Shown here piece by piece: positions 27,101 through 37,743 of a stretch of 37,824 nt of DNA. Source of the stretch: Microcaldota archaeon (lineage in GTDB: Archaea > Micrarchaeota > Micrarchaeia > Micrarchaeales > Micrarchaeaceae); NCBI GenBank assembly GCA_021790455.1, contig JAJYDY010000004.1:1-37824 (forward strand), given 5' to 3'. The position numbers and the translations under genes are program-made. Each line of letters starts with the position of its first letter. Positions within the stretch are counted from its first letter, which is position 1. The notes beneath the pieces are model-generated. The model was not told the DNA's origin, searched no databases, and worked only from the letters and a program-made list of their open reading frames with translations.

Positions 27101-28561
27101 ATGGCTTTCCCGAAGGCGCAGAGCGCAATAGAGTACCTGATGACCTATGGGTGGGCAATACTCATCATCGTGGTAGTACTGGCGATACTGTTCCTGTCAA
27201 ATGTCTTCAACGGCTCTATCTTCATATCGAACAGCTGTGCATCCTCGCAGGGCTTCGTCTGCGGCAGTCCGGTGCTCAACCAATCAGGATATCTCAGCGT
27301 GACTGTCAGCAGATATGGGCAGGCGCTGAATGTGACAGGACTCGCATGCGTGGGCAATACATCCACGCCTTCTGCTTTCATCCCAATTCCAATGACCGAG
27401 CTGAAGGAGAGCTACACATACACTCTCATATTCCGATGCACGCTTCCAAAGAGCACAATAGGGAGCGGATTCACCGGATACATCTGGATGCAGTACAGCG
27501 AGGCTGGCCAGTCAGGCCTTGTCAGCGAGATAGGGAGGGTATCCACCAGCGTTGAGACTGGAGCCATACTCACCACATCTACAACATCAACATCAACTTC
27601 CACATCAACAACTTCCACTTCAACAACTTCTACTTCAACAACAACAATATCATCGATATACTGCGTCGGTGGCGTCTATGGCGGGAACAACGCGAATCTG
27701 GTATATTCCGCACAGGCGTCCGGTGGCACCATTGGATCATGGTCTTCTCAGACAAGTTACCCGACTGATATACAATCGCAGAGCTGTGACATTTCCAATG
27801 GCTATATCTATTGTGTGGGGGGTTACAACAACACTAATGGCTATTATAGTACAAATGCGGTATATTCTGCACCTGCATCCAGTGGAACAATAGGGGGATG
27901 GTCTACGCAGATAAATTATCCAACACAGATTGATGTACATAGCTGCGTAATCTCTAACAACTACATTTATTGCATTGGTGGCCTTGACGCTAACGGCCAC
28001 CTAACCAATATAATAGCATCAGCCAAGATATCCAGCGGCACGATTGGCTCATGGTCATTCCAGGCTAACTATTCAACACCGACAGGATATCTCAGTTGTG
28101 CAGCTTCTGGCGGCTATGTCTACTGCATAGGCGGCGAAACCAATTCCGGAACGTCGAGCGCGGTCTATTCTGCTCCAATCTCTGGAGGAACGATAGGATC
28201 GTGGTCGTCCCAGACAAGCTATCCAACAGTAATCATGGAAACTAGTTGCACTGCCTCAAATGGCTATCTATATTGCATAGGTGGTTACAACAACAGCGGG
28301 ACGACAAGCACTACGTTCTCTGCTCCGATTTCAGTGGGGACTGTAGGTTCATGGACAGGCCAGACCGGCTACACTACAGTAGTAAGGGACCAAAGTTGCT
28401 CCCTTTCAAATGATTATCTATATTGTGTAGGTGGATTCACCAACTCTGGTTTGACAAGCGCAGTCTATTCAACCTCTGCTTCTGGCGGTGCACTAGGATC
28501 ATGGTCTTCACAGACTAGCTACCCCAATACTATACTAGTTCCCTCCTGCATTACTGATTGA
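27101..28561 (+). CDS. Pilin-type N-terminus fused to a six-bladed kelch-like propeller
   Basis: A 486-residue surface protein. The first 35 residues (MAFPKAQSAIEYLMTYGWA, then ILIIVVVLAILFL) are a class III pilin signal peptide and core helix. A beta-rich domain of about 115 residues follows, then a Thr/Ser linker (about 153-183). Residues 186-486 hold six repeats of about 50 residues with core YC[V/I]GG, VYSAP, SGGTIGSWSSQTSYPT and SC. Each SC...YC pair is eight to ten residues apart and suggests one disulfide per blade. The first repeat lacks SC and the last lacks YC, so the ring probably closes by pairing ends. It likely acts as a pilus-displayed or membrane-anchored adhesin or sugar/protein binder. 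A TATA-like CTTTTTATAGC lies about 25 nt upstream. Confidence 0.8.
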   Translation: MAFPKAQSAIEYLMTYGWAILIIVVVLAILFLSNVFNGSIFISNSCASSQGFVCGSPVLNQSGYLSVTVSRYGQALNVTGLACVGNTSTPSAFIPIPMTELKESYTYTLIFRCTLPKSTIGSGFTGYIWMQYSEAGQSGLVSEIGRVSTSVETGAILTTSTTSTSTSTSTTSTSTTSTSTTTISSIYCVGGVYGGNNANLVYSAQASGGTIGSWSSQTSYPTDIQSQSCDISNGYIYCVGGYNNTNGYYSTNAVYSAPASSGTIGGWSTQINYPTQIDVHSCVISNNYIYCIGGLDANGHLTNIIASAKISSGTIGSWSFQANYSTPTGYLSCAASGGYVYCIGGETNSGTSSAVYSAPISGGTIGSWSSQTSYPTVIMETSCTASNGYLYCIGGYNNSGTTSTTFSAPISVGTVGSWTGQTGYTTVVRDQSCSLSNDYLYCVGGFTNSGLTSAVYSTSASGGALGSWSSQTSYPNTILVPSCITD

Positions 28562-32553: not shown

Positions 32554-32889
32554 TTATGCGGCTGTTGGCTTGTTCTTTATCGTCGCCTTGAACCTCTTTA
32601 TCAGGTCTACAGCTTGGCTGACCGCCCTCTTGACGTCTGCCTTTGTCCTCGCCCCCGTGCAGATTATCTTCCCGTTCTTGAACAGCAGGAGCGCAGCCTT
32701 AGGGTCGTGCACCTTGTAGATCGCTCCAGGGAACTGCTCTGGCTCGTAGTCGACATCGTGCGACATCTTCGCAAGCCCGTAAAGGTCAAGGTCCAGCTGA
32801 AGGTCCGCGCTTGCTACTATATTCTCAACGTGATAAGTGGGCTTCAATACAACCCTCTTGTGAGGAGTAGAAACTGCACGCTCTGCCAT
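32554..32889 (-). CDS. Single-repeat TATA-binding protein (half-TBP)
   Basis: A 111-residue protein that matches exactly one of the two repeats of TBP. After a 17-residue N-terminus it has YHVENIVASADLQLDLDLYG, then EPEQFPGAIYKVHDPKAALL, then LFKNGKIICTGARTKADVKR. These include the two intercalating phenylalanines, Phe 53 in FPG and Phe 70 in LLFKNGK, and the TGA motif. Normal archaeal TBP is about 180 residues with two such repeats. Nothing resembling a second repeat is found upstream or downstream, and a TATA element (32919-32926) about 30 nt before ATG 32889 fixes the start. As a homodimer it would recreate the TBP saddle. It might instead be an accessory TBP paralogue. Confidence 0.85.
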   Translation of the reverse strand: MAERAVSTPHKRVVLKPTYHVENIVASADLQLDLDLYGLAKMSHDVDYEPEQFPGAIYKVHDPKAALLLFKNGKIICTGARTKADVKRAVSQAVDLIKRFKATIKNKPTAA

Positions 32890-32918
32890 TCGAACACCGG
32901 TTTAGATTCTCTATGAAC

Positions 32919-32926
32919 GTATAAAT
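32919..32926 (-). promoter_or_regulatory. TATA element for the half-TBP gene
   Basis: The minus strand reads GGTATTTATACG around this position, about 30 nt before ATG 32889. It supports the annotated start and makes an unseen N-terminal repeat unlikely. Confidence 0.5.
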
Positions 32927-32982
32927 ACCTTACGTATGCAATATCTAGTGCTTCCAAGCAATTACGAAATTCAGTGATAACA

Positions 32983-33291
32983 ATGACAAAGAGATCGCAT
33001 GGCCTGTTCGTTGGAAGGACAAGGCATCTCGCAAGGCACCACAAGCCATCATCGCTCAGTGTGAACGATTACATAAAGAAGTTCGAAGTAGGGGAAAAGG
33101 TGGTCATAGTGCCTAAGGGAAATACGCGGGACATCCCGCATCCGAGATACAGGGGAAGGATAGGCGTGATTACGGAAAAGAGGGGAGCCTCTTATGTTAT
33201 AAAGGTAAGGATAATGTCAGCAGAAAGGACCCTAATCGCCCCTGCGATACATCTTGAAAGGGTAAAGGAGCAGCGCGTACAGAAGGCCTGA
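32983..33291 (+). CDS. rpl21e: Ribosomal protein eL21 (L21e)
   Basis: A 102-residue large-subunit protein specific to archaea and eukaryotes. It starts MTKRSHGLFVGRTRHLARHH and contains the conserved YIKKFEVGEKVVIVPKGNTR and HPRYRGRIGVITEKRGASY segments. ATG 32983 gives the usual N-terminus; 32974 is an in-frame ATG. In many archaea rpl21e leads an operon with rpoF and the DUF655 gene; here those two genes are just downstream but on the opposite strand, so the cluster is conserved in content but inverted. Confidence 0.95.
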   Translation: MTKRSHGLFVGRTRHLARHHKPSSLSVNDYIKKFEVGEKVVIVPKGNTRDIPHPRYRGRIGVITEKRGASYVIKVRIMSAERTLIAPAIHLERVKEQRVQKA

Positions 33292-33320: not shown

Positions 33321-33917
33321 TTAGTATCTTCCTCTTCCTCCACCACCATAGCCCTCCCTCCTCACATAGGGCTTCGTGAACATGTAGAACCTCTCAGTGC
33401 CGTGGAGCTCGTTGACTATCCTGTCTGTTATGAGCTTGGCAGGATCCTGCATAAGCGATACCCTTTCTGTAATGTCCTTGAAGCTCTCGAACTTCTTCTC
33501 TCCCCTTGCTTTGAGTATCGCCTCCAGGTGCTTCTTCCCTATCCCGGGAAGCAGCTCGAGCGAATGCTCCCTTATGTTGAGGGGTCCCGCATTGTTGAAA
33601 ACATCGACGAATTTCTTTTCGCGCTCCTTTACGATCCTCATGACCATGTTTGGCAGCTCGTTCTTCGCGGTCTGCGTGAGTTCATCGACGCTTATCCTTG
33701 ACTTGATCAGCGATACCTTCTCCCGCTCATCCTTTCCTATGTAGACCCGCTCCCCTGCCTTTAGCGAAGCGCCCGGCTTCGGGACTGCTTCGAGCAGCGT
33801 GAACCATTCCTCGCCTATCAGCTGTGCGAGCGGCTCAGACCTTCCGGAAAAAGACTTGCCGCTGGACAGGAAGTCGAGCACAAGTGCGTATTCCTCGCGT
33901 TTCTCCTCTCCCAGCAT
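33321..33917 (-). CDS. DUF655 RNA-binding/HhH protein
   Basis: A 198-residue archaeal protein with an N-terminal OB-like region (EEYALVLDFLSSGKSFSGRS and ERVYIGKDEREKVSLIKSRI) and a helix-hairpin-helix near residues 120-150 (SLELLPGIGKKHLEAILKAR). The C-terminus is glycine/arginine-rich (EGYGGGGRGRY). This is the DUF655 family, universally near eL21 and rpoF in archaea and presumed to act in RNA metabolism. The start is ATG 33917, 22 nt after the rpoF stop. The frame runs on to 33965 but would overlap rpoF. Confidence 0.85.
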   Translation of the reverse strand: MLGEEKREEYALVLDFLSSGKSFSGRSEPLAQLIGEEWFTLLEAVPKPGASLKAGERVYIGKDEREKVSLIKSRISVDELTQTAKNELPNMVMRIVKEREKKFVDVFNNAGPLNIREHSLELLPGIGKKHLEAILKARGEKKFESFKDITERVSLMQDPAKLITDRIVNELHGTERFYMFTKPYVRREGYGGGGRGRY

Positions 33918-33939
33918 TTCAATCCACCCATTAAAACCC

Positions 33940-34272
33940 TTATGCGTGCTCCTTAACAGCTGCAAGCATCTTGCTTATCTCATCGTCCGAGAACGTCTTG
34001 TTCTCGTGCGCAAGTATCTGCCTCAGGGTCAGCGCGCTCTTCGGCAGAATGTCCATTATCCTGAAGGCGGTCTTCTCGCTCGCGCCGAGCGAGACCAGCG
34101 CGCTCTTGAGCTTCTCCTCCTTGCCTTTCTCCAGGCCGGCGAACTTCTTCGCGTGGTCGTAGGCGAGCTGCTGTTCGTATGTGAGCTCCTTCTCCTTCTT
34201 CTTGTCATCGAGTATGCGCTTTACCTCCCCAAGGGAGACAATGCTCTCAGACTCGCTCTCTCTTCCTATCAT
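33940..34272 (-). CDS. rpoF: RNA polymerase subunit Rpb4/RpoF
   Basis: A 110-residue archaeal subunit F that pairs with Rpb7/RpoE to form the stalk of RNA polymerase. Its N-terminus is MIGRESESESIVSLGEVKRI, followed by ELTYEQQLAYDHAKKFAGLE and the HRDC-like helical C-terminus DILPKSALTLRQILAHENKT. Starting ATG 34272 matches family length; the open frame to 34464 runs into unrelated sequence. It is cotranscribed with the DUF655 gene. A TATA-like CTTAATATACCC lies roughly 50-65 nt upstream, so a short leader is likely. Confidence 0.9.
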   Translation of the reverse strand: MIGRESESESIVSLGEVKRILDDKKKEKELTYEQQLAYDHAKKFAGLEKGKEEKLKSALVSLGASEKTAFRIMDILPKSALTLRQILAHENKTFSDDEISKMLAAVKEHA

Positions 34273-34462
34273 AAGTATCACTAGGGTTACTCTCTTTCCT
34301 GAAACACTATATTCTGAGGGAAAGGGTATATTAAGGTTTTGTTCCTGCGGGCTTTGCGCGTTAAAAACACTGCCTATTTTTAGCCAGTTCAGGGAATGCC
34401 GATAAAAGAGCGGCTGCATAACATTTTTAAAGTTATGAGCCTCATATAAATCAGGCGATTGC

Positions 34463-34762
34463 ATGAGGCTTTCTGAAATCTACAGCATGGATATATATAG
34501 CGACGGCGGTTCCTACCTCGGAGAAGTTCGTGATGCTATAATAGACCTTGAGAAGGGAGAAGTGAGCAGGCTGCTCATGGATGAATGGAGGACTATGGAC
34601 AGGGACGAGGTAAAGCATATGCTGCAGCAGAAGAGCATACTCTTCAAGAACATCAAGAACGTTGGAGACGTTGTCCTCGTTTCCGTGACCGGCGCAGCTG
34701 CTGGCAAGCCTCCTGAAAGTGGCGCGAGCGCGGAAGTGTCGGACCTTGCGAACAGGCGCTGA
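34463..34762 (+). CDS. PRC-barrel domain protein
   Basis: A 99-residue protein whose first 80 residues follow the PRC-barrel pattern: MRLSEIYSMDIYSDGGSYLG, then EVRDAIIDLEKGEVSRLLMD, then a late strand VGDVVLVSV. PRC-barrel proteins in archaea bind RNA, RNA-processing factors or cell-division machinery. The C-terminus is Ala/Ser/Gly-rich and flexible. ATG 34463 is divergent from rpoF by 190 nt. A TATA-like ACATTTTTAAAG lies about 35 nt upstream. A T-rich tract (34763-34810) follows the stop, so it is probably monocistronic. Confidence 0.75.
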   Translation: MRLSEIYSMDIYSDGGSYLGEVRDAIIDLEKGEVSRLLMDEWRTMDRDEVKHMLQQKSILFKNIKNVGDVVLVSVTGAAAGKPPESGASAEVSDLANRR

Positions 34763-34865: not shown

Positions 34866-36356
34866 GTGCTGGTGGCAAAAGGCATCGTTGTTTCTATCGA
34901 AGGCATAGATGGAGCAGGGAAGACGACGCATGCGAGGCTCCTTAAGGAAGAGCTTGGCGCCCTAGCCATACTGGAGCCTGAGCCTACAATGAGCGACTTA
35001 GGCAGGTGGATAAGGAAAGAGCTTAAGGAGAAATGCCTCAACAACAAGCAGCTGCAGACCCTTTTCATCGCGAACAGGGTGGAGCATTTCGAAAAGCTTA
35101 AGAGGAAGATAGCGAACGGGATAACCGTCATTATGGACAGGGGAGAGATATCTACTGCTACCTATGGTGCATCAACGGGAGACTTCACACTGGAGGAAGT
35201 GCTAGCGACGCATCGGAGAGCAGACGTACCAAAGCCTGACCTCGTCATTTTCCTAAAGCTGTCCAATGAAGAGGCAAAGCGCAGGCGAGAGAGCAGGAAT
35301 GGAGGCAAGGAAAGGTTCGATGATGAGCAGTTCCAGCGTAAACTGGCTGGAACTTATGAAGCGCTTAGGGAGACGGGCGCATACAAGTGGGTAGATGTTG
35401 ATGCAAATCAGGGCGTGGAGGAGACCCACAGACAAATAATGCAGGTGCTGCGTAAGCATTGCGTTTTGGAAGGCAAGAAAATCCCGCGGAGGGACAGCGC
35501 GGCAAGATTCTACGCGACAGAGACCACAGTCGCGCTCGATGAATCGTGCAGGGTGCAGGTTCAGGAGATGGTTGTCGAGAGGTATATGAGCTGCGATAGA
35601 GTCCACTGGCTGAGGATGGAGAAGCCGCCCGAAGAGATCCTGGAAGCCGCAGAGAAGCTCTCCAAATTCGTGGGGCGAGTAGCCAAAGAGGTGGATGCGA
35701 GGTGGTTCGCGCGACAACTCGAGAGACGGGCGATATACAGCCTGTTATACGGCGAGGCGGGAGAGCTCGGAGAATATATTGCAAAGGAAAAGCGCGACGG
35801 AAAAGACTACCATAATGAGATGGCGGCAGAGAGCGTAGACCTTGTTTTCTATCTTGCGAAGGTCGTCACAGATGCAAATGTCGATGTAAAGAGCATGTGG
35901 CAGAAAATGGCGTTCAATGTAAAGCGGCAGAATGAGTTGCTGCTCCTCGGAGAGCAGAGCGCAGAGACAATATCGCAGACGCTTTCATTCGTCTGCGCAG
36001 GCATCGGCTCGCTTTCCAGCAGGCAATCATCAAAAGTCACGATAAACATCAACACAGACCCTGAGCCAGAACCTGAAAAGGACCCAGTATGGCTTGCGCA
36101 CTACAAACATATATCTGGTATGGAAGAAGAGCAGGACATAGAACGTCCATCACACTTCGAGCAGCATCCGCTTTCCTTTGATTTCGATTCCGGATGCACT
36201 ATCGCACTCTATCTCACATTGAAGCTGATTGACAAGCTTGATATGGACTTCGATGCGGCATGGGAGGGAAAGATGAAATTCAACGCTGCAAGGTTCGGGG
36301 CTCTCGCAAATGTTGCAGGAGGCGAAGCAGTCGCAAAAGGGAAACTAAAAGGGTAA
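34866..36356 (+). CDS. Thymidylate kinase fused to a MazG-like C-terminal region
   Basis: A 496-residue fusion. Residues 1-200 are a complete thymidylate kinase: P-loop SIEGIDGAGKTTHARLLKEE, DRGEISTATYGAS in place of the DRY/H motif, and a lid-like RRRESRNGGKERFDDEQF. Kinase action makes dTDP from dTMP. Residues about 280-375 show an all-alpha pyrophosphatase pattern: LLYGEAGELGEYIAKEK, then EMAAESVDLVFYLAKVVTDA and MWQKMAFNVKRQNELLL (E-x2-E, E-x3-D, K-x5-R). Residues 420-485 repeat part of it (ALYLTLKLIDKLDMDFDAAW). The fusion would tie dTTP synthesis to removal of dUTP or other bad nucleotides. Start is GTG 34866 (or 34872); the TATA element lies about 30 nt upstream. The tRNA-Glu begins 35 nt after the stop. 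Confidence 0.8.
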   Translation: MLVAKGIVVSIEGIDGAGKTTHARLLKEELGALAILEPEPTMSDLGRWIRKELKEKCLNNKQLQTLFIANRVEHFEKLKRKIANGITVIMDRGEISTATYGASTGDFTLEEVLATHRRADVPKPDLVIFLKLSNEEAKRRRESRNGGKERFDDEQFQRKLAGTYEALRETGAYKWVDVDANQGVEETHRQIMQVLRKHCVLEGKKIPRRDSAARFYATETTVALDESCRVQVQEMVVERYMSCDRVHWLRMEKPPEEILEAAEKLSKFVGRVAKEVDARWFARQLERRAIYSLLYGEAGELGEYIAKEKRDGKDYHNEMAAESVDLVFYLAKVVTDANVDVKSMWQKMAFNVKRQNELLLLGEQSAETISQTLSFVCAGIGSLSSRQSSKVTININTDPEPEPEKDPVWLAHYKHISGMEEEQDIERPSHFEQHPLSFDFDSGCTIALYLTLKLIDKLDMDFDAAWEGKMKFNAARFGALANVAGGEAVAKGKLKG

Positions 36357-36537: not shown

Positions 36538-37743
36538 ATGCCATACATGGAAGACCAAGCTACGCTAGATGGTGTATTCGCCCGCGTGACGGAAGACCCG
36601 CTCATATCCAAGCAGAACGCCAAATACATAGAGGCGCATATCGAATTCCTGAAGGCCAAACAGTCAAACGTAAGAACCCTGATCAAGCACCTCTATCATT
36701 TAAGGAGATTCTTCAGGGTGCTGAAAACCCCCAAAAAGGACTTCAAGCGGATTACAAGGGCGGACATGCAGGCCGCAATGGCCGAGATGGAAGGCACGGA
36801 ATACAGCAGCGAGACTAAAAGGAACATAAAGGTCGTCGTCAAGTACTTCTGGAAGCACCTTAAAGGCGATGACGAGTTCTATCCGGTCGAGGTCAGGTGG
36901 ATCGACACATCGGGAGACAGAAAGAACAAGAAGATGCCGGAAGACCTGCTTACTGAGGAGGAGGTAAGGAGGATGATAGAATCCGCGACCACACTCAGGA
37001 ACAAGGCGATCATTGCAATATTATATGACACAGGGTGCAGGATAGGTGAATTGCTCAACATGAGAAAGAAGGATGTAAACCTGATCACAATGCCCGCGCA
37101 CGTCCTGTTGGATGGCAAAACGGGACAGAGGCAGGTTCCCGTCATATTCAGCGCGCCATATGTGGCGCAATACCTGAACTTCATAAAGGAAAAAAAGCCG
37201 AACGAGCCGATGTGGACATCGTATAACAATGGCAGGGATACTGACAGAAAGACGGATTACAGGGGAATATCGAAGATGCTCAAGATGGTTGCAAAGAAGG
37301 CGAAGATAGAGAAGAGGGTGCATCCGCATCTCTTCAGGCACAGCAGGGCGACGGCATACGCCAACAAGCTCACGGAGCAGCAGCTGAAGAACATGTTCGG
37401 ATGGACCAACAGTTCCACCATGGCCGCTACCTACGTTCACCTGAGCGGAAGGGACATAGACAGCGCGGTGATGCAGGCAAACGGCCTGAAACCACGCGAA
37501 GAGGCGGCTGAGCCAAAATTAAGGGCGAAAGTGTGCGAGAGGTGCCAGTTTCCTAATACTATGGATTCGAGCTACTGCAACAGATGTGCCCTGCCTCTCG
37601 ACGCCGGGCTGGCAGCGGAAATGCAGTACAGGGAAGGCAACATAAAGCAGGCAATAATCGATGTCATGAGGGATCCGAAGATAGTAGAGGATATAGTTCA
37701 TACTTATTTGTTAACGCAGGCGAAGAAGGGAAGAAAAGCATAA
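36538..37743 (+). CDS. Tyrosine site-specific recombinase with C-terminal zinc ribbon
   Basis: A 401-residue integrase-family enzyme. An N-terminal SAM-like core-binding domain (about 20-125) contains the LIKHLYHLRRFFRVLKTPKK pattern. The catalytic domain has Arg 168 in DTGCRIGELL, a beta-2/3 lysine in LLDGKTGQRQVPV, HPHLFRHSRATAYA (His and Arg), and the nucleophile Tyr near 299 in MAATYVHLSG. A zinc ribbon follows: VCERCQFPNTMDSSYCNRCA. This combination is common in archaeal chromosomal and element-borne integrases. It starts 73 nt after tRNA-Glu, on the same strand, and is the last gene in the window. Whether it is an element integrase or a resident Xer-like recombinase cannot be decided. 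The final 80 bases (37744-37824) show nothing recognisable. Confidence 0.88.
   Translation: MPYMEDQATLDGVFARVTEDPLISKQNAKYIEAHIEFLKAKQSNVRTLIKHLYHLRRFFRVLKTPKKDFKRITRADMQAAMAEMEGTEYSSETKRNIKVVVKYFWKHLKGDDEFYPVEVRWIDTSGDRKNKKMPEDLLTEEEVRRMIESATTLRNKAIIAILYDTGCRIGELLNMRKKDVNLITMPAHVLLDGKTGQRQVPVIFSAPYVAQYLNFIKEKKPNEPMWTSYNNGRDTDRKTDYRGISKMLKMVAKKAKIEKRVHPHLFRHSRATAYANKLTEQQLKNMFGWTNSSTMAATYVHLSGRDIDSAVMQANGLKPREEAAEPKLRAKVCERCQFPNTMDSSYCNRCALPLDAGLAAEMQYREGNIKQAIIDVMRDPKIVEDIVHTYLLTQAKKGRKA

Follow-up and report, generated by a model that had tools for sequence, protein, structure and literature searches.

The window, i.e., the whole stretch of 37,824 nucleotides analyzed here, is contig C16 of a 782-kb Micrarchaeota genome that is 84% complete. 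On its minus strand it carries a gene for a TATA-binding protein (TBP) with a single repeat (paralogue A; 32554..32889), which starts with ATG and encodes 111 amino acids. As read from the sequence, the ATG is preceded at 5 nt by a Shine-Dalgarno-like GGTG (32895..32898, minus strand) and at 30 nt by the TATA box TATTTATA (32920..32927, minus strand), exactly where the first-pass annotation had placed a promoter. The divergent neighbor on the plus strand encodes ribosomal protein eL21 (32983..33291), and it is followed on the minus strand by a gene for a DUF655 protein (33321..33965), both being conserved synteny partners of the primary TBP gene, and by that for RNA polymerase subunit F of the Rpb4 family in the same cluster (33940..34464). 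The palindromic TATA box within 32890-32982 could serve both gene A and eL21 as a bidirectional promoter. Further away, the window encodes a large, possibly surface protein that combines Kelch-like repeats and a Thr/Ser-rich linker with an N-terminus resembling that of pilins (AQSAIEYLMTYGWAILIIVVVLAIL; 27101-28561), a thymidylate kinase domain whose C-terminal fusion partner, about 300 residues long, has no Pfam match (34866-36356) and, close to the contig end, a tyrosine recombinase of the phage integrase family (36538-37743).

TBP is described as a two-repeat protein on which all transcription in archaea and eukaryotes depends (PMC7221094). The product of gene A matched the TBP family profile PF00352 in one stretch, residues 19-100, corresponding to profile positions 2-85 of 85 (E = 9.1e-27; 93.2 bits versus a cut-off of 22.9). 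With the archaeal two-repeat TBP models (NCBIfam PRK00394) it reached about 65-90 bits versus cut-offs of 181-347, covering one stretch only. When all six frames of the window were scanned with a TBP profile, no second repeat appeared (next match E = 0.17), neither in the adjacent frames, where the first-pass annotation had allowed that one might have been missed, nor elsewhere, and none was seen hidden in the flanks of TBP loci. The residues highlighted in that annotation, F53 and F70 with the F53-P54-G55 and T78-G79 motifs, were located as claimed and lie in columns that vary little or not at all across 52 relatives; the central Asn/Thr (N23 and T78) is conserved as well, and E49 and E51 are the glutamate pair of the TFB-contacting stirrup. 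The AlphaFold2 model, based on 52 aligned proteins from the window and the TBP loci, had a pLDDT of 89.7 and the strand-helix pattern of a single TBP lobe. In Foldseek, it superposed on the TBP 2z8u of M. jannaschii with an rmsd of 0.9 Å over 79 columns, and all 44 PDB entries matched at E <= 0.001 were TBPs or TBP-containing chains. The closest PDB relatives of A at the sequence level are archaeal TBPs, each matched twice, one match per lobe. Thus, the gene encodes exactly one TBP repeat, and the model predicts with confidence that its product has the helix-grip fold of a TBP lobe.

Compared with the archaeal TBPs of known structure (M. jannaschii 2z8u, P. woesei 1pcz/1ais and S. acidocaldarius 1mp9), A shares the lobe fold and the two Phe per lobe, with about 43% identity to a 2z8u lobe when the folds were compared. 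Also common to A and the archaeal two-repeat TBPs are the central Asn/Thr and the glutamates that contact TFB. The difference is that A has one lobe per chain instead of two and would need a dimer to form the saddle; moreover, it has FKNGK in place of FxSGK and lacks the asymmetry between N and C lobes. The two-repeat TBPs of other Micrarchaeota have the same eL21/DUF655 locus and the same FKNGK lobes as A, differing in that two lobes lie within one chain. Single TBP-like lobes are also present in bacterial RNase HIII and RnlA, contacting nucleic acid through an aromatic loop residue (PMC7221094), as A would, but these are enzyme domains without TFB signature or TATA function, whereas A is a stand-alone TBP. 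Among 142 distinct single repeats from Micrarchaeota, both intercalating Phe were kept in all 142 and the central Asn in 141. The Glu-Pro-Glu signature of TFB contact was found in 141/142 of them, compared to 26/120 canonical N repeats and 113/116 canonical C repeats. Since the TFB-contacting glutamates are a signature of the C lobe of TBP (PMC7221094) and are present here in every lobe, TFB could bind a symmetric dimer at either end.

TBP-family matches occurred at two places in the genome, gene A in the window and a second gene, B, on contig C22, each with one lobe. The product of B, 121 amino acids as counted from the first in-frame ATG, was modeled as a single lobe with a pLDDT of 88.9. 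Because of this second gene, A is not the only TBP gene of the organism, a possibility raised conditionally in the first-pass annotation. A two-repeat TBP, the presence of which elsewhere in the genome was the other reservation of the first-pass annotation, was absent from the recovered 84%, and a gene missing with the remainder can be excluded only via complete relatives. A single TFB is encoded in the genome, with both cyclin repeats in the same frame; such a TFB, with both repeats in one chain, was found in most of the 41 genomes checked. B adjoins a flavoprotein (locus L002), by reading of its sequence geranylgeranyl-reductase-like, in 34/35 loci of the window's family. Its start is unusual: in this family, B appears to begin at ACG (L002:1400-1480 and orthologous loci). 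This codon stands at the expected place in about 28/35 genomes, preceded by a GGTG motif in 26, and 11 B genes have no ATG, GTG or TTG at all between the upstream stop and the lobe. In the sister family, B genes mostly start at ATG. ACG as a general start codon of the family was rejected, as it was found at 0/121 codons with Shine-Dalgarno spacing in the window and the relative G020.

Comparison with close relatives showed that the single-repeat TBP is a lineage trait. At least two single-repeat genes were present in 34/37 genomes of the window's family, including two genomes assembled as one contig, G020 and G021 (952,257 bp), the latter with A and B as its only TBP genes. Broken down by the number of single-lobe genes, there were 31 genomes with two, two with three, one with a single gene and two without any, and one further genome combined two such genes with a canonical TBP. 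The canonical two-repeat TBP, in G022 (L003, C43), lies on a contig of 8.4 kb and clusters with the repeats of Thaumarchaeota, for which reasons it points to contamination or transfer and was rejected as a sign of a normal TBP in the family. In the sister family, a lone one-lobe gene was found in 15/23 genomes, one of which (G039) is on one contig of 771.5 kb, and two TBP matches in 7/23. The second match in G059 is a partial copy adjoining the first: at the edge of contig C39 (L020), 99/102 bases of this tandem lobe copy are the same as in the next one, reflecting either an ongoing duplication or an artifact at the edge of the assembly. One record, titled Candidatus Marsarchaeota (L158), also carries TBPs of this Micrarchaeota sister family and is probably a mislabelled bin. 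In a survey of 196 genomes of the phylum, some families had one-lobe TBPs only and others a two-repeat TBP. Iainarchaeota have mostly one-lobe TBPs, as short as 88 amino acids; in one genome (G243, C8:9538-10695), an open frame of 726 codons contains four TBP repeats. TBPs of Altiarchaeota were two-repeat wherever full genes were seen. In a pattern-based sample of named archaeal contigs, full-length TBPs likewise had two repeats in all records other than the Micrarchaeota/Iainarchaeota-like ones.

The gene neighborhood links these architectures to each other. The eL21 gene lies beside the TBP gene in 29/36 loci of the window's family, 33/37 of the sister family, 19/26 of the other one-lobe Micrarchaeota, 17/18 of the two-lobe Micrarchaeota and 8/22 of Iainarchaeota. 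The eL21/DUF655 neighborhood was absent from all 113 canonical TBP loci and all 20 Altiarchaeota loci inspected. This shared position makes the one-lobe and two-lobe TBPs of this lineage positional orthologues, and since A, beside eL21 and DUF655, occupies the locus that holds the two-repeat TBP in other Micrarchaeota, it is to be regarded as the main TBP.

In the doubled TBPs of this lineage, the two repeats share 49-76% identity (mean 65%), compared to 25-58% (mean 41%) in canonical TBPs. In a repeat tree (151 repeats, 88 columns, no outgroup root), all Micrarchaeota and Iainarchaeota repeats, single and double, formed one clade (SH-aLRT 99) and the canonical C repeats a separate one (SH-aLRT 96), and a single clade of canonical N repeats was not rejected (AU 0.683), leaving an unresolved trichotomy of N repeats, C repeats and the Micrarchaeota/Iainarchaeota clade. 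This clade and the high identity within proteins suggest one founding lobe, the doubled TBPs having been re-made by tandem duplication or homogenized; every TBP of Micrarchaeota and Iainarchaeota thus appears to descend from one lobe. Alternatively, the ancestor had two homogenized repeats which were trimmed to one several times. The 88-column tree is compatible with an N lobe, a C lobe or a pre-duplication lobe as the founder and cannot tell them apart. A shared origin of the doubled state was rejected across both phyla (p = 0.009), and with it one origin for all re-fused TBPs, but not within Micrarchaeota only (p = 0.195). The B repeats formed a clade with a support of 100, and the duplication into A and B predates the split of the window's family from its sister family. 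A split-gene origin, with A as the N half and B as the C half, was rejected on the grouping of A with B, away from the canonical N and C repeats: B shares one lobe clade with A, so it arose by duplication of a single lobe rather than as the second half of a divided gene.

As the TBP of this lineage is encoded as one-lobe proteins, the saddle probably has to form from two molecules. We consider it likely that A is the primary, one-lobe TBP of the organism and that lobes of separate chains pair, bind a near-palindromic TATA box and leave its direction to TFB. In such a scheme, two lobes from separate polypeptides, A:A and possibly A:B, would pair via the first strand of each lobe, giving the saddle which is otherwise formed within one chain. 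With its four Phe, two from each lobe, the dimer would then bind and kink a TATA box that is nearly palindromic. An ordinary TFB, carrying both cyclin repeats, would bind one of the equivalent glutamate-bearing stirrups and, as the presumed source of polarity, set the direction of transcription. TATA-like promoters and a single TFB, with which A would act in binding and bending TATA DNA and recruiting TFB, are both present. If TBP acts as a dimer, A:A must exist in the sister-family genomes with one single-repeat gene; the conservation of B in the window's family makes a heterodimer possible there.

Such a heterodimer might even be obligate in the window's family, A and B being specialized halves of a split TBP, neither of which works alone. 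Almost every genome of the family indeed keeps both A and B, and NCBIfam models of archaeal TBP align A mainly to their first half and B to the second. However, both proteins fall inside the one Micrarchaeota/Iainarchaeota clade and not with canonical N and C repeats, both have the TFB glutamates of the canonical C repeat, many sister-family genomes manage with A only, and the start of B at a codon other than AUG suggests that the partners are made in unequal amounts. An obligate pair is therefore rather unlikely, although it is the most serious competitor of the preferred reading.

Considerably less probable is that the lineage diverged before the lobe duplication of TBP and preserves the ancestral state. 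The position of its lobes in one clade outside the canonical C repeats, within a trichotomy, would agree with this, but the N/C duplication is common to Altiarchaeota, other DPANN, all other archaea sampled and eukaryotes, so that the lineage would have to be the sister of everything else, and the tree has no rooting outgroup. The resemblance to the ancestral state noted in the first-pass annotation thus holds for the architecture; as history it is not supported, since the repeat tree is silent and the phyletic distribution favors secondary reduction over an ancestral single lobe. Even more improbable is that A is a secondary or regulatory paralogue, with the main two-repeat TBP lying in the missing part of the assembly. 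The 84% completeness and the canonical gene in G022 could speak for it. Against it, near-complete and one-contig relatives have single-lobe TBPs only, the G022 gene is most readily attributed to contamination or transfer, and A occupies the primary TBP locus; synteny and conservation contradict both this option and that of an intact repeat surviving from a longer gene, each of which had been raised at first. Finally, although near-identical tandem repeats could collapse in assembly and G059 has a fresh tandem copy at a contig edge, a truncated or misassembled fragment of a two-repeat gene is hardly conceivable, as dozens of independently assembled genomes, some of them on one contig, show the same architecture complete with a natural start, stop and promoter.

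Promoter symmetry was analyzed in 400 kb of the relative G020, which has both A and B, using TATA-like cores 28-60 nt before crudely called gene starts. An A at position -3 was found in 38/54 promoters, and 37/54 had a T at +3, which mirrors it (p about 1e-8 for either); non-divergent genes kept the pattern (22/27 for A and 19/27 for T). In comparison, Woesearchaeota with a canonical TBP had the upstream A in 29/45 and the downstream T in 12/45 promoters, the latter differing from G020 with a Fisher p of 4.6e-5. In the A-only genome G039, the downstream T was weakly represented (10/28) and not significant (p = 0.13). No usable controls came from Altiarchaeota, Thaumarchaeota and Bathyarchaeota, the promoter motifs of which were too weak. 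The promoter of gene A, AAGG-TATTTATA-CGTT, matches the dyad-symmetric pattern of the family, AAnn-TWTWWAWA-nnTT. Such promoters fit a symmetric recognition, although the downstream T could instead be a BREd-like element.

A broader scenario, which may hold but to which we give somewhat less than an even chance, is that the ancestor of Micrarchaeota and Iainarchaeota swapped its two-lobe TBP for a symmetric dimer of one-lobe proteins, with promoters of the AA-nn-TATA-nn-TT type and direction set by TFB only. Later tandem fusions in several descendants would have replayed the duplication presumed to have made TBP, and in the window's family the ACG-started B would provide a tunable heterodimer.

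Single-lobe TBPs of archaea were mentioned in one sentence in 2020, crediting an earlier study (PMC7221094, ref. 37 therein), and the proteins meant are probably of the same class as A. That sentence in itself names no lineage, copy number, paralogue pair or synteny, nor a test for a sole TBP or a promoter analysis. A search of the open literature found no follow-up and no paper naming the lineage or treating a single lobe as the sole TBP. The study credited is likely that of Brindefalk et al. from 2013. The origin of the internal duplication of TBP is usually regarded as lost in deep time. Here, a living lineage has a single-lobe TBP, and its relatives have one, two or re-fused lobes at one gene position. 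Together with the palindromic-looking promoters, this makes the duplication, the asymmetry of TBP and the direction of promoters directly testable.
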